Source: a virus
IMG/VR virus record: IMGVR_UViG_3300027747_000827
Coordinates: 1-22,491 of that record
Length of the DNA stretch: 22,491 nt
Strand: one strand, 5' to 3'
Shown here: positions 2,496-18,480 of the stretch, one piece after another
Position numbering within the stretch: the stretch's first letter is position 1
Layout of the letters: the number at the start of each line of letters is the position of its first letter
Notes under the pieces: generated by a model
Seen by the model: only the letters and a program-made list of their open reading frames with translations
The model's database searches: none
What the model was told of the DNA's origin: nothing
Position numbers and translations under genes: made by a program

Positions 2496-3458
2496 TTAAG
2501 CTAAGATAAAATCAACCATCTCATCAGGGAATGCAAATTGCACACCGAACTTAAACGCTGCCATGAACTTAATGTTCATTGCATATGGGTCATTGATTAA
2601 TTCAAATTTCTCCTCTTCATTCAACAAGTCAGTACCGATGAACAAGTTAGAAACACGACCAGCGTATATCTTAGAAGTTCCGTTCAATCCTTGAACTGCA
2701 ATAACCTTGATAGTTGTACCTGGCAAAGTTAATTCGCCAGTTGCTTGACCATCAAAAGTATAATTAAATAAATTTGAATTTTTTAATGCGATAGTGTAAG
2801 TACGGAATACATCGTTTCCTACAAAAATAGCAATGTCATCCTTATCAACGATTTGCGCTGGGATAGCTTTGTAAACTGCATCTAAAACTGCAACAACAAC
2901 ACCACTTGTGATACCAGCAGAAGCAGCCAAAGCAGTTCCGTAATAAGTAGTTGTATTTGCGTGGATAACTGAAGCCGAAGCGGCAGCAACTAATTTAACA
3001 TAACCATCAAACTTATTTAAGTTACCATTTGCTGATGCAGTATCTCCTTGCCAAATAGCAGTTTCCAATTGAGCCGCAATCCTAGCTGACTTTTTAGTTG
3101 TATAATCAGCAGCAAAAGCAATTGAATCATACATTGAACCAGCCGATAATGCTTTTTGTAAATACTTAGATTCTAAATTTTTAGGACATAATGCCTCTTG
3201 TACTTTAATTTTTCCAACCGTTACACTTCTTTGAGTGAAAGTAGTTGTACCCGATGCGTTGAATCCGCAATCGCTATCATCTTGAAAGAAAGCATCAGTA
3301 TCCATGATACCAATTTTCTCAGAAGATTTTACTCCAACTAAAACGTTTCCTTGAGATTTAATCAAAGTAGCAGTTTTAGAGCCAAGAACTGAAGATGTTA
3401 CTAATAATGCTTCGTTTTCTTTGGCGTAATCCGTTAATGTACTTACAACAAATGCCAT
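2496..3458 (-). CDS. Major capsid protein (HK97-fold type)
   Basis: A 320-residue protein starting MAFVVSTLTDYAKENEALLV. It has the overall layout of the short, scaffold-dependent capsid proteins of Bacteroidetes siphophages: an N-terminal helix, a Gly/Ala-rich middle (LVAAASASVIHANTTTYYGT), an A-domain-like part with IAIFVGNDVFRTYTIAL, and a conserved C-terminus FMAAFKFGVQFAFPDEMVDF. It assembles the icosahedral shell. The gene follows the protease and scaffold-like genes, the usual head-assembly order. To the eye it uses more G and C at third positions than its neighbours, as expected for a very highly expressed gene. The start ATG lies 21 bases after the scaffold stop. Assignment is from context plus sequence character and is well supported. 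Confidence 0.85.
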   Translation of the reverse strand: MAFVVSTLTDYAKENEALLVTSSVLGSKTATLIKSQGNVLVGVKSSEKIGIMDTDAFFQDDSDCGFNASGTTTFTQRSVTVGKIKVQEALCPKNLESKYLQKALSAGSMYDSIAFAADYTTKKSARIAAQLETAIWQGDTASANGNLNKFDGYVKLVAAASASVIHANTTTYYGTALAASAGITSGVVVAVLDAVYKAIPAQIVDKDDIAIFVGNDVFRTYTIALKNSNLFNYTFDGQATGELTLPGTTIKVIAVQGLNGTSKIYAGRVSNLFIGTDLLNEEEKFELINDPYAMNIKFMAAFKFGVQFAFPDEMVDFILA

Positions 3459-16777: not shown

Positions 16778-17526
16778 TATTCGTTAGGTTTAATAGTTCC
16801 ATCTTGATCAATAAAGCAATCAAATGTAGCTAAAGAATTGATAAATTTAATATAACCTTGAGTTTTACAATGTAATTTTCTCTCTTCAACATCTTGAATA
16901 TTAGAATACTTATTCCAAAGTTCTATTTTTTCTTCTCTTGAAATTGTAGGTATTTTAAATTGTTCTAAATAATCAAATAAGATTGATAAGCCTCCAGCAA
17001 TAAACGTAAATTTCTTATCATTTTGTTCGCAAAATCTAATTTGCTTGGCATATTCATTAGCCGTGTCAATGGCTTGCTTCTTTAATTCTTGATCACTTGG
17101 TACCGGTATCTTTTCTTCTTTTTGTTTTTCCTTTGCAACCTTACTTAAAACTTCATTTTTTTCGTAATAATATTTCTTTATCCATTGCACAAAAATAGAT
17201 GAATTAAAAAATACTGATGATTCAGCTTGATTCAAATACTCGCCATTTAATCCATTGTTAACAGCAATCATTATATCATCCTCTGAATAGTTACCAAATG
17301 CCTCAAGATCGGTTAAAATTAATTTAATATCCATTTCTTCCTCTCCTTTATTTTTGTCCCTTAAACCTAACTTGGCTTTAGCTAATGCAACTACTTTCAT
17401 TGCAATCTGTAATTTTTTACTTTCAGATAATAATTTAATCACTGGCTTTAAATATGCCTGATAAATTAATTCTTCTCTTTTAGTTAAATAATTATTTTCT
17501 ACTGAAAGGATTATTGAATGTTCCAT
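16777..17526 (-). CDS. Replication-associated protein of unknown function
   Basis: A 249-residue mostly helical protein starting MEHSIILSVENNYLTKREEL. It contains a Lys/Glu-rich linker (SKVAKEKQKEEKIPVPSDQE) around residues 127-146 and a C-terminal helical part (LWNKYSNIQDVEERKLHCKT). There are no Walker motifs, so it is not an AAA+ helicase loader. It overlaps the replication initiator by 35 bases and is therefore translated with it. In lambda-like systems this position holds the helicase-loading protein (P), and a non-ATPase loader of that type is the best guess, but it rests on synteny alone. A DnaD/phage-replisome-like fold is also possible. Confidence 0.6.
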   Translation of the reverse strand: MEHSIILSVENNYLTKREELIYQAYLKPVIKLLSESKKLQIAMKVVALAKAKLGLRDKNKGEEEMDIKLILTDLEAFGNYSEDDIMIAVNNGLNGEYLNQAESSVFFNSSIFVQWIKKYYYEKNEVLSKVAKEKQKEEKIPVPSDQELKKQAIDTANEYAKQIRFCEQNDKKFTFIAGGLSILFDYLEQFKIPTISREEKIELWNKYSNIQDVEERKLHCKTQGYIKFINSLATFDCFIDQDGTIKPNE

Positions 17527-18265
17527 CTTCTATTTCTTTTAAAAGTTTTTGTTCTAATGAATATAAATTCTCAAAGTTCTTTTGGTGATTACCTTTTTTT
17601 TCTAAAGGTTGATGATAAATAATCTCATCGTTCCAGCATTTATTATTTAAATAAGTAGATGGATTTTTTCTAAATTTAATATCTTGATTTGCATTTACAT
17701 AATCTTGAATAGTATTTAAAATATTATCAATATCATTTACAGATAATTTATTCCAAGTCTTTTCGCATTTAGATCTATCTACTTTTTTATTATAACAATC
17801 CCAAAAGAAATTAAAATCACTTTCGCGTTGTATACTTGTAGATTTGTATACTTGTATATTTGTATTATTGTAAATTGGTATATCTATATGATCAATGCTT
17901 TGTACCGTGCTTTCCCTTTGCTTTGTACCATGCTTTATCAATGCTTTATCAAGTGCTTTGCTATGTGCTTTATCAAAATTTGATAGAGCAACTATGTTAG
18001 CAGAATACTGATTTTTACTTCTTTCAACCACAATAATTAACCCAATTTCTTCGAGATCATTAAGAGTATTAATATAAGTATTATGAGATTTTATACCGAT
18101 GGCTTCCATCGACATCATGCTTGGAAGACCAAATTTTTTCTTCCATCCTAATCTGTTACAATGCTCAATAATAAAGAAATATAAAGCACAATGATTTGGC
18201 TTTATTTTATCTGGATTATCATAGGCATAGTCCCAAAAGTTTCTTGACAAACTATATATGTCCAT
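17492..18265 (-). CDS. Replication initiator (O-like), carrying the origin repeats
   Basis: A 257-residue protein starting MDIYSLSRNFWDYAYDNPDK. Residues 1-95 form a winged-helix-like DNA-binding domain (LYFFIIEHCNRLGW, SMEAIGIKSHNTYINTLNDL, EEIGLIIVVERSKNQYSA). Residues 98-150 are a low-complexity linker (DKAHSKALDKALIKH). Residues 150-215 carry the phage replication C-terminal module FFWDCYNKKV, KTWNKL, KNPSTYLNNKCWNDE. This is the layout of phage O-type initiators, which bind iterons and recruit helicase. The DNA coding for the linker is itself two tandem repeat arrays, as in lambda where ori lies inside O. The ATG is 3 bases after the T-tract of a leader terminator, so expression likely depends on read-through. 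Confidence 0.82.
   Translation of the reverse strand: MDIYSLSRNFWDYAYDNPDKIKPNHCALYFFIIEHCNRLGWKKKFGLPSMMSMEAIGIKSHNTYINTLNDLEEIGLIIVVERSKNQYSANIVALSNFDKAHSKALDKALIKHGTKQRESTVQSIDHIDIPIYNNTNIQVYKSTSIQRESDFNFFWDCYNKKVDRSKCEKTWNKLSVNDIDNILNTIQDYVNANQDIKFRKNPSTYLNNKCWNDEIIYHQPLEKKGNHQKNFENLYSLEQKLLKEIEDGTFNNPFSRK
17828..17891. repeat. 8-bp tandem repeat array (TTGTAnnn), 16-bp iteron-like
   Basis: On the plus strand TTGTA recurs at 17828, 17836, 17844, 17852, 17860 and 17868, exactly every 8 bp, then decays (TGGTA at 17876, CTATA at 17884). The 13-mer TTGTATACTTGTA is identical at 17828 and 17844 and has two changes at 17860, a 16-bp period. Neither 8 nor 16 is a multiple of 3, so the repeats run through all reading frames of the initiator linker. 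That argues for selection on DNA rather than peptide. Confidence 0.85.
17896..17976. repeat. Seven TGCTTT repeats at 11-12 bp spacing (23-bp iterons)
   Basis: TGCTTT occurs at 17896, 17908, 17919, 17931, 17942, 17954 and 17966 on the plus strand (AAAGCA on the coding strand), with spacings of 12, 11, 12, 11, 12 and 12. As pairs they make units of 23, 23 and 24 bp; TGCTTTGTACC opens the first two and TGCTTTATCAA recurs in others. Because 11- and 23-bp steps break codon phase, the encoded peptide changes from DKAHSKALDKAL to GTKQRESTVQS while the DNA repeat persists. Confidence 0.85.
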
Positions 18266-18268
18266 TTT

Positions 18269-18312
18269 AAAAAATAAAAAAGCCAGTCTGCGTCAGAGTG
18301 CAGAACTGGCTT
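18269..18312 (-). terminator. Rho-independent terminator abutting the rep start codon
   Basis: Minus strand AAGCCAGTTCTGC, loop ACTCTGAC, GCAGACTGGCTT: an 11-bp stem with one bulged T, followed by TTTTTATTTTTT. The rep ATG (18265) comes 3 bases after the T tract, so termination here would block rep expression and read-through would permit it. Confidence 0.85.
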
Positions 18313-18363
18313 GGTTGGTAAAGATACCGGATAACCCAAAGACTCTGACCCCTTTGGCTTATT
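18269..18363 (-). ncRNA. Structured leader RNA with kissing loops, upstream of rep
   Basis: From a TATATTTG element the predicted RNA starts near 18363 and holds three contiguous hairpins. H1 (18357-18336) is CCAAAG / CTTTGG with a 10-nt loop containing GUCAGAGU. H2 (18336-18313) is GGUU / AACC plus GGUA / UACC with loop UCUU and an AUCC bulge. H3 (18312-18281) is the terminator, with an 8-nt loop ACUCUGAC. The H1 and H3 loops are perfectly complementary over 8 nt, enough for an intramolecular kissing interaction or dimerisation. The 5'-end AAGCCA can also pair with UGGCUU at the 3' arm of H3, giving an alternative fold that would open the terminator. It is either a stand-alone small RNA or an attenuator leader for rep. 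Confidence 0.7.
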
Positions 18364-18367
18364 GTTA

Positions 18368-18375
18368 CAAATATA
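18368..18375 (-). promoter_or_regulatory. Bacteroidetes-type -7 element TATATTTG (leader RNA promoter)
   Basis: TATATTTG on the minus strand matches the Bacteroidetes TAnnTTTG -7 consensus exactly. It lies between a 32-codon ORF stop (18382) and the structured RNA, giving a start near 18360-18364. I see no clear -33 TTTG at the expected distance. Confidence 0.55.
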
Positions 18376-18381
18376 CAAAGA

Positions 18382-18480
18382 TTATTTTTTTTGTTTAGGA
18401 ATAATCCCTAGTTTTTTACGATCTTTTTCTAACTCTTTGGCTAAATAAATGTGCCAAGTATTATATGTTAATTTTTTCAT
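18382..18480 (-). CDS. Micropeptide (32 residues), lysine-rich
   Basis: An ORF from ATG 18480 overlapping the stop of the 44-residue membrane ORF (ATGA), reading MKKLTYNTWHIYLAKELEKD, then RKKLGIIPKQKK. It is basic and helical. Its stop lies 6 bases before the promoter-like element. Coupling by ATGA and protein-like composition support it. Function unknown. Confidence 0.55.
   Translation of the reverse strand: MKKLTYNTWHIYLAKELEKDRKKLGIIPKQKK

Follow-up and report, generated by a model that had tools for sequence, protein, structure and literature searches.

Leader RNAs that keep their loop fit while the letters change point to a possible self-recognising switch of phage replication

Introduction

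In the plasmids pT181 and pIP501, the rep gene lies behind an attenuator, and copy number is sensed through loop RNA pairing with an inhibitor encoded on the opposite strand. Comparable RNAs are known from phages. The IsrK locus of the Salmonella prophage Gifsy-1 makes a short terminated RNA and a read-through mRNA from one promoter, with the shorter isoform acting on the longer in trans (PMC4825925). The CI RNA of P4 terminates transcription of replication genes (PMC4825925). Complementary loops within one RNA occur in phi29 pRNA, where two of them pair between molecules over 4 bp in the service of DNA packaging (PMC7357161), and in cobalamin riboswitches, where the L5-L13 contact is an intramolecular loop-loop pairing in a regulatory leader (PMC11260477).

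Here, we describe a leader RNA from the minus strand of the virus sequence IMGVR_UViG_3300027747_000827, of which the 22,491 nucleotides analyzed are henceforth termed the window, in which the loop of a first hairpin (H1) is complementary to the loop of a terminator hairpin (H3) ahead of rep. As in pT181 and pIP501, a rep gene is placed behind a putative attenuator, but the complement lies on the same strand and in the same RNA, unlike in these plasmids and ColE1. The anatomy of promoter, terminator and gene, known here from sequence alone, fits that of IsrK, which differs in that it is not described with a kissing partner for its terminator loop or with loop alleles, and in that it controls an antiterminator circuit in an Enterobacteria prophage. 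With P4 CI and the c4 RNA of P1/P7, the leader would share the principle of a phage RNA that distinguishes related phages and, by pairing with a leader, stops expression of replication genes (P4) or of an antirepressor (c4). Those are, however, processed antisense-like RNAs of temperate elements; here a single leader, closed by its own terminator, contains both partners, and the phages that carry it have no recognisable integrase. Lysogenic immunity of the CI/c4 type was accordingly rejected: none of 50 records, many of them fragments, contains a tyrosine integrase, and none of 21 records, likewise often fragmentary, a serine recombinase above cut-off. Two complementary loops in one phage RNA also recall phi29 pRNA, but the loops of the leader share 7-8 bp and its 3' end is a terminator, and its place at a replication operon in all lineages led us to dismiss a packaging RNA of this type. 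Cobalamin riboswitches differ in having a conserved aptamer core, which the leader lacks, and Rfam finds no riboswitch.

The preliminary description of the locus, drawn from the letters of the window, knew of no RNA family with this shape, and the searches agree. Rfam 15 (cmscan) gave 0 matches above the gathering threshold in the window, nothing meaningful around the leader at E up to 5, and, with the limit set to 0.05, no match for seven other loci; the nearest sub-threshold matches (ceN44, PreQ1 and DUF2693 RNA) were judged to be noise. No description of such a leader was found in the set of papers searched. We regard the leader as attenuator-like, perhaps in the manner of IsrK or CI, and as a member of none of the families tested.

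Results

The leader RNA spans positions 18363-18269 of the minus strand (ca. 90 nt) and precedes rep (17492-18265, minus strand), the first gene after it, which encodes a replication initiation protein (phrog_270, E = 2.3e-19). A Bacteroidota-type -7 promoter element, TATATTTG (18368-18375, minus strand, as are all features that follow), is separated by the 4-nt spacer TAAC from the base of H1, and transcription should start at or adjoining this hairpin. H1 (18330-18363), the predicted 5'-terminal hairpin, is supported by folding and by changes on both stem sides in relatives; it reads AATAA-G-CCAAAG/CTTTGG-G-TTATC, i.e., a 5-bp lower stem, a G.G mismatch and a 6-bp upper stem. Its 10-nt loop, GG-GUCAGAGU, ends in the eight-nucleotide kissing sequence GUCAGAGU (18342-18349). 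A small spacer hairpin of only 4 bp, H2 (GGUA-UCUU-UACC, 18317-18328), appears in the fold and has counterparts in the linkers of relatives. H3, the terminator hairpin (18280-18312), contains a bulged U and reads AAGCCAGUUCUGC (arm), ACUCUGAC (loop) and GCAGACUGGCUU (arm). The entire 8-nt H3 loop, ACUCUGAC (18292-18299), is the exact complement of the kissing sequence in the H1 loop, and the two covary. The U tract of the intrinsic terminator, UUUU-A-UUUUUU (18269-18279), where the 3' end of a short RNA of ca. 90 nt is expected, is followed by AAA and the rep ATG at 18265.

The minimum free energy fold consists of the three hairpins (-33.6 kcal/mol, z = -4.5), and 0 of 200 shuffled sequences were equally stable. 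A sequence element followed by three hairpins, the last a terminator just before rep, had been proposed at the outset together with loops able to kiss over 8 bp, and both proposals stand. A GC-rich hairpin with a U tract between promoter and start codon, as expected of an attenuator, is found in sequence, fold and relatives. On the opposite strand of the leader, inspection revealed no terminator-like U tract after a hairpin. The loop 7-mers are absent elsewhere in the window, which leaves the leader as the only site of an exact partner. Directly upstream of the promoter and outside the RNA lies a 32-aa ORF, MKKLTYNTWHIYLAKELEKDRKKLGIIPKQKK (18382-18480, minus strand); the stretch that holds it is 93-95% identical in the relatives L002 and L008.

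To follow the loop pairing, relatives were drawn from viral contigs by a pattern for the terminator arms that left the loop free and ignored H1. In each of the 93 distinct leaders, a stretch of at least 7 nt within the 75 nt upstream is perfectly complementary to the leader's own H3 loop; permuted H3 loops have such a partner in only 2.4%. Six loop alleles exist (GUCAGAGU, GUAGGAGU, GUCGGAGU, GUGGUAG, GUGAGAG and GUCGUAG), each with a matching H3 loop. In an alignment of 34 distinct leaders, 32 cells of the loop helix are changed on both sides, a count reached by 0 of 500 shuffles, and controls with a slid (offset) pairing are flat. The stems behave similarly in the same 34 relatives: 9 of 11 pairs of H1 (98.1% of cells paired) and 5 of 12 pairs of H3 carry changes on both sides. 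The compensatory changes that the preliminary description had named as its check, in loops as well as stems, are thus present, with the proviso that counts from this alignment are inflated by the relatedness of the sequences. One further suggestion, a competition of AAGCCA near the 5' end for UGGCUU in the terminator arm, fell: in H1, AAGCCA makes up the lower strand and pairs with GGGUUAU, and as an antiterminator pairing with the terminator arm it shows no covariation (0 changes on both sides) and is broken in many of the 34 relatives compared. The lower H1 stem itself covaries, from AATAA/TTATT to AATTA/TAATT.

All 34 relatives, and also the cultured Flavobacterium phage FCL-2, have a hairpin of 3-6 bp at the position of H2. 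The linker between H1 and H3 measures 17-21 nt, of which 3-9 nt remain unpaired with H2 folded. Cognate loop pairs have predicted energies of -9 to -12 kcal/mol and most non-cognate pairs of -3 to -7 kcal/mol; the commonest alleles are incompletely orthogonal, with -10.2 kcal/mol for GUCGGAGU and ACUCUGAC. When records were grouped by allele, no clear excess of the own 8-mer was apparent outside the leader.

Because relatedness inflates covariation counts, the same architecture in unrelated sequences weighs more. The counterparts in cultured phages were found through gene homology and an architecture scan for a promoter, an H1 loop complementary to an H3 loop, a terminator and an ATG, which recovers the leaders of cultured phages and gave 0 matches in a 2.1-Mb order-3 Markov control. 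L003, with a rep 91% identical to that of the window, has an unrelated leader with the loops CTCACTAC/GTAGTGAG. Further loop pairs are GTCGAGA/TCTCGAC (L185-L187 and L190), TTTTAGCG/CGCTAAAA (L196), AACACAC/GTGTGTT (L178) and ACAGCAC/GTGCTG (the rep leader of L182, found by inspection). Among cultured phages, the pairs are CATCCTA/TAGGATG in Tenacibaculum phage JQ, GGTGGAA/TTCCACC in Polaribacter phage Danklef_1, CATCCAC/GTGGATG in FCL-2 and GTAGAGAG/CTCTCTAC in Flavobacterium phage FCV-1. These leaders, L185 and L190 in the case of the shared pair, lie at or near the head of a replication-initiator operon. The scan detected no such leader in phi40:1 (first 50 kb), phi18:1, phiSM and phi13:1 (50 kb each), nor in Ingeline_6, P12024S, P12002L and 11b. 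Only chance matches were returned by blastn of the window leader against cultured phages and of one relative's leader region against plasmids.

Three of the sequences have additional features. In L178 (2885-3005) and L182 (ca. 2890-3000), the kissing sequence (AACACAC and ACAGCAC, respectively) is present a third time, just 5' of the ATG; the terminator loop could also pair with this start region, and all three sites change together between the two phages. L182 contains a second kissing-terminator leader (251-369) of other sequence (TCTTCAC/GTGAAGA) ahead of a different operon (MKKTLFNDKPQGLL..., no PHROG match), which suggests that the design may extend beyond replication genes. A leader-like region in L180 (1900-2055), with long complementary pieces TTGTGAATCATAA and TTATGGTTCACA plus GGTGTGAA before the ATG, fits the H1/H3 scheme poorly.

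The position of the leader relative to promoter and gene is constant. H1 is preceded, at a distance of 4-6 nt, by a TANNTT(T/G)N element in 105 of 106 distinct leaders, half of which also have a -33 TTG 19 nt upstream of the -7 element; this short distance predicts that H1 forms the very 5' end of the RNA. At the other end, the start codon follows GGCTTT by 11-17 nt in 100 of 101 loci, not all of them independent, and by 22 nt in the remaining one. A covariance model found one full match in 47 of 50 records and none in those of L003 and L190, since their leaders are unrelated in sequence. The 59,277-base record of L167 (L206, L207) has two leaders before two different rep genes ca. 31 kb apart and is probably an assembly chimera of two related phages of ca. 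30 kb.

Behind the leader, about 16 unrelated kinds of first gene occur, mostly replication initiators or HNH nucleases that precede them, and in L005 (rep 70% identical) the leader is located one gene further upstream. The carriers are viruses of Flavobacterium-like bacteria, in which the RNA sits just before DNA-replication genes, and it likely controls these genes. The initial idea of a leader gating rep therefore needs widening: a leader with kissing loops and a terminator does precede rep, but it is not rep-specific, given the range of first genes and the existence of sequence-unrelated counterparts in cultured phages of flavobacteria. In L072, L082, L117 and L204 (1640-2008), an HNH or GIY-YIG-like endonuclease is the first gene directly behind the leader, and these genes look as if they had entered the gap between leader and replication gene. 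The downstream initiators of L006, L059, L066, L067 and L102 have unrelated N-terminal parts and a common C-terminal tail, (P/E)KLGTSAARMEA(L/I)(R/K)(K/N)W, which suggests modular exchange of the DNA-binding part.

Between near-identical phages, the leader diverges more than either flank. Both flanks are 93-98% identical between the window and L002, the leader is 77% identical, and the kiss is intact in both; L074 and L077 share a gene at 98-100% and a leader at 85% identity. Exchange is visible in other comparisons: the window and L008 have the leader (94%) and the upstream part in common but not the gene, and FCL-2 and FCV-1 share the upstream gene, after which leaders and following genes differ. 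Leader alleles are swapped between phages.

Discussion

That the kissing-loop leader is a genuine structure, far from chance, we consider near certain, and the loop pairing is under selection. As to its role, we regard it as evenly poised whether the leader is a transcription attenuator of the replication operon whose terminated product of ca. 90 nt recognises its own leader in trans. Transcription would begin at H1, and H3 would stop most transcripts to yield a short RNA protected by hairpins at both ends, with read-through past H3 producing the rep mRNA. The kiss between H1 and H3 would span 7-8 bp, and the functional contact would be mainly intermolecular, the short RNA binding the nascent or read-through leader of another genome copy with the same loop allele. 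The loop would then be a specificity tag, and rep expression would track how many like genomes a cell contains. The sign would most likely be negative, so that a phage would hold back the replication of its own kind and of any superinfecting phage that shares its allele; we prefer negative feedback because it best fits replication control and allele diversity. An attenuator and a small RNA that recognises itself had been offered as alternatives in the preliminary description; they are compatible, since the short RNA would be the terminated leader. Termination at H3 in vivo, accumulation of the short RNA, action in trans and the sign are what we infer from the comparisons above; the host RNA-seq published for FCL-2 was made without phage (PMC8092290).

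Recognition in trans is favored because folding of H2 leaves only 3-9 unpaired linker nucleotides, because the alleles diversify, and because the window offers the RNA no exact partner other than itself. A divergence peak in which internal pairing is kept would also fit specificity alleles recognised in trans, although recombination at a conserved cassette, or an antagonist, could yield local divergence as well, and the cross-pairing of the commonest alleles speaks against strict specificity. More broadly, and tentatively, the leaders may represent an undescribed, widespread RNA class of Bacteroidota phages that have no recognisable integrase, in which genomes sense their own kind in trans through the loop-pair allele, combining replication control with incompatibility (superinfection exclusion) under diversifying selection on the allele; we hold this to be possible, short of an even chance.

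A possible alternative, and a serious one, is that H1 and H3 of one molecule kiss in cis only. The resulting compact fold would determine how efficiently the terminator works, how stable the RNA is or how easily ribosomes reach the nearby ATG, or, in a variant of equal standing, it would be read by a ligand or by a protein of phage or host; in either case, the loop letters would drift with compensation and mean nothing between molecules. All covariation is as expected for such pairing, which would leave the same trace as recognition in trans and would be kinetically favored, and kissing loops within one leader are well known from cobalamin riboswitches (PMC11260477). The difficulty is geometric, as we judge it: with H2 open, a linker of 17-21 nt might be barely long enough to connect the helices, but the few nucleotides left with H2 folded are little for a coaxial stack of H1, kiss and H3 of ca. 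30 bp. Pairing in cis alone also does not explain that near-identical phages differ more in the leader than in the coding sequence on either side, or that whole alleles are swapped at one locus in F. columnare phages.

Recognition in trans could instead carry the opposite sign. A short RNA that binds the read-through or nascent leader and favors rep read-through or translation would create a delay switch that fires replication after build-up. IsrK offers a precedent, its short form favoring its own mRNA (PMC4825925), and the third kissing copy before the ATG in L178 and L182 means that loop pairing could govern translation there. The canonical family lacks such a copy near the ATG, however, and positive feedback alone would not explain allele diversification, so we think it rather unlikely.

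Diversity might also be driven by an antagonist, such as an RNA-targeting host Cas13, a satellite or a host decoy RNA, with pairing kept for structure alone. F. columnare has a type VI-B CRISPR-Cas system that was studied with phage FCL-2 (PMC8092290), and the leader is where divergence peaks. Yet a small number of alleles is found repeatedly, in many phages and ahead of many genes, which resembles a limited specificity set and not open-ended escape, and makes this origin improbable in our view. Still harder to sustain is a stand-alone small RNA with other phage or host targets and an incidental place before rep: both ends appear hairpin-protected, as in stable small RNAs, but the 11-17-nt spacing to the start codon is fixed across 16 kinds of gene, and neither the loop 7-mers in the window nor the own 8-mers in the allele groups point to a target beyond the leader. 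Chance complementarity beside an ordinary terminator, arguable from the window alone because short repeats often match by chance, is refuted by 93 of 93 leaders against 2.4% and by the empty 2.1-Mb control for the full architecture with promoter.

Leaders with a loop that complements the loop of their own terminator, an arrangement that has survived full sequence turnover in several lineages, constitute a distinct architecture without an Rfam entry and provide a handle on replication timing in Bacteroidota phages, whose gene control is little known. As cultured phages carry different natural alleles, the idea is directly testable in FCL-2 and FCV-1 (Flavobacterium columnare), Danklef (Polaribacter) and JQ (Tenacibaculum), and the loop pairs are ready-made orthogonal RNA parts, the commonest alleles being not fully orthogonal. 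The persistence of the fit through changes of sequence suggests a self-recognising RNA switch that may set when or how much a phage replicates; if the pairing takes place in trans, it would amount to RNA-coded recognition of self and non-self among phages.
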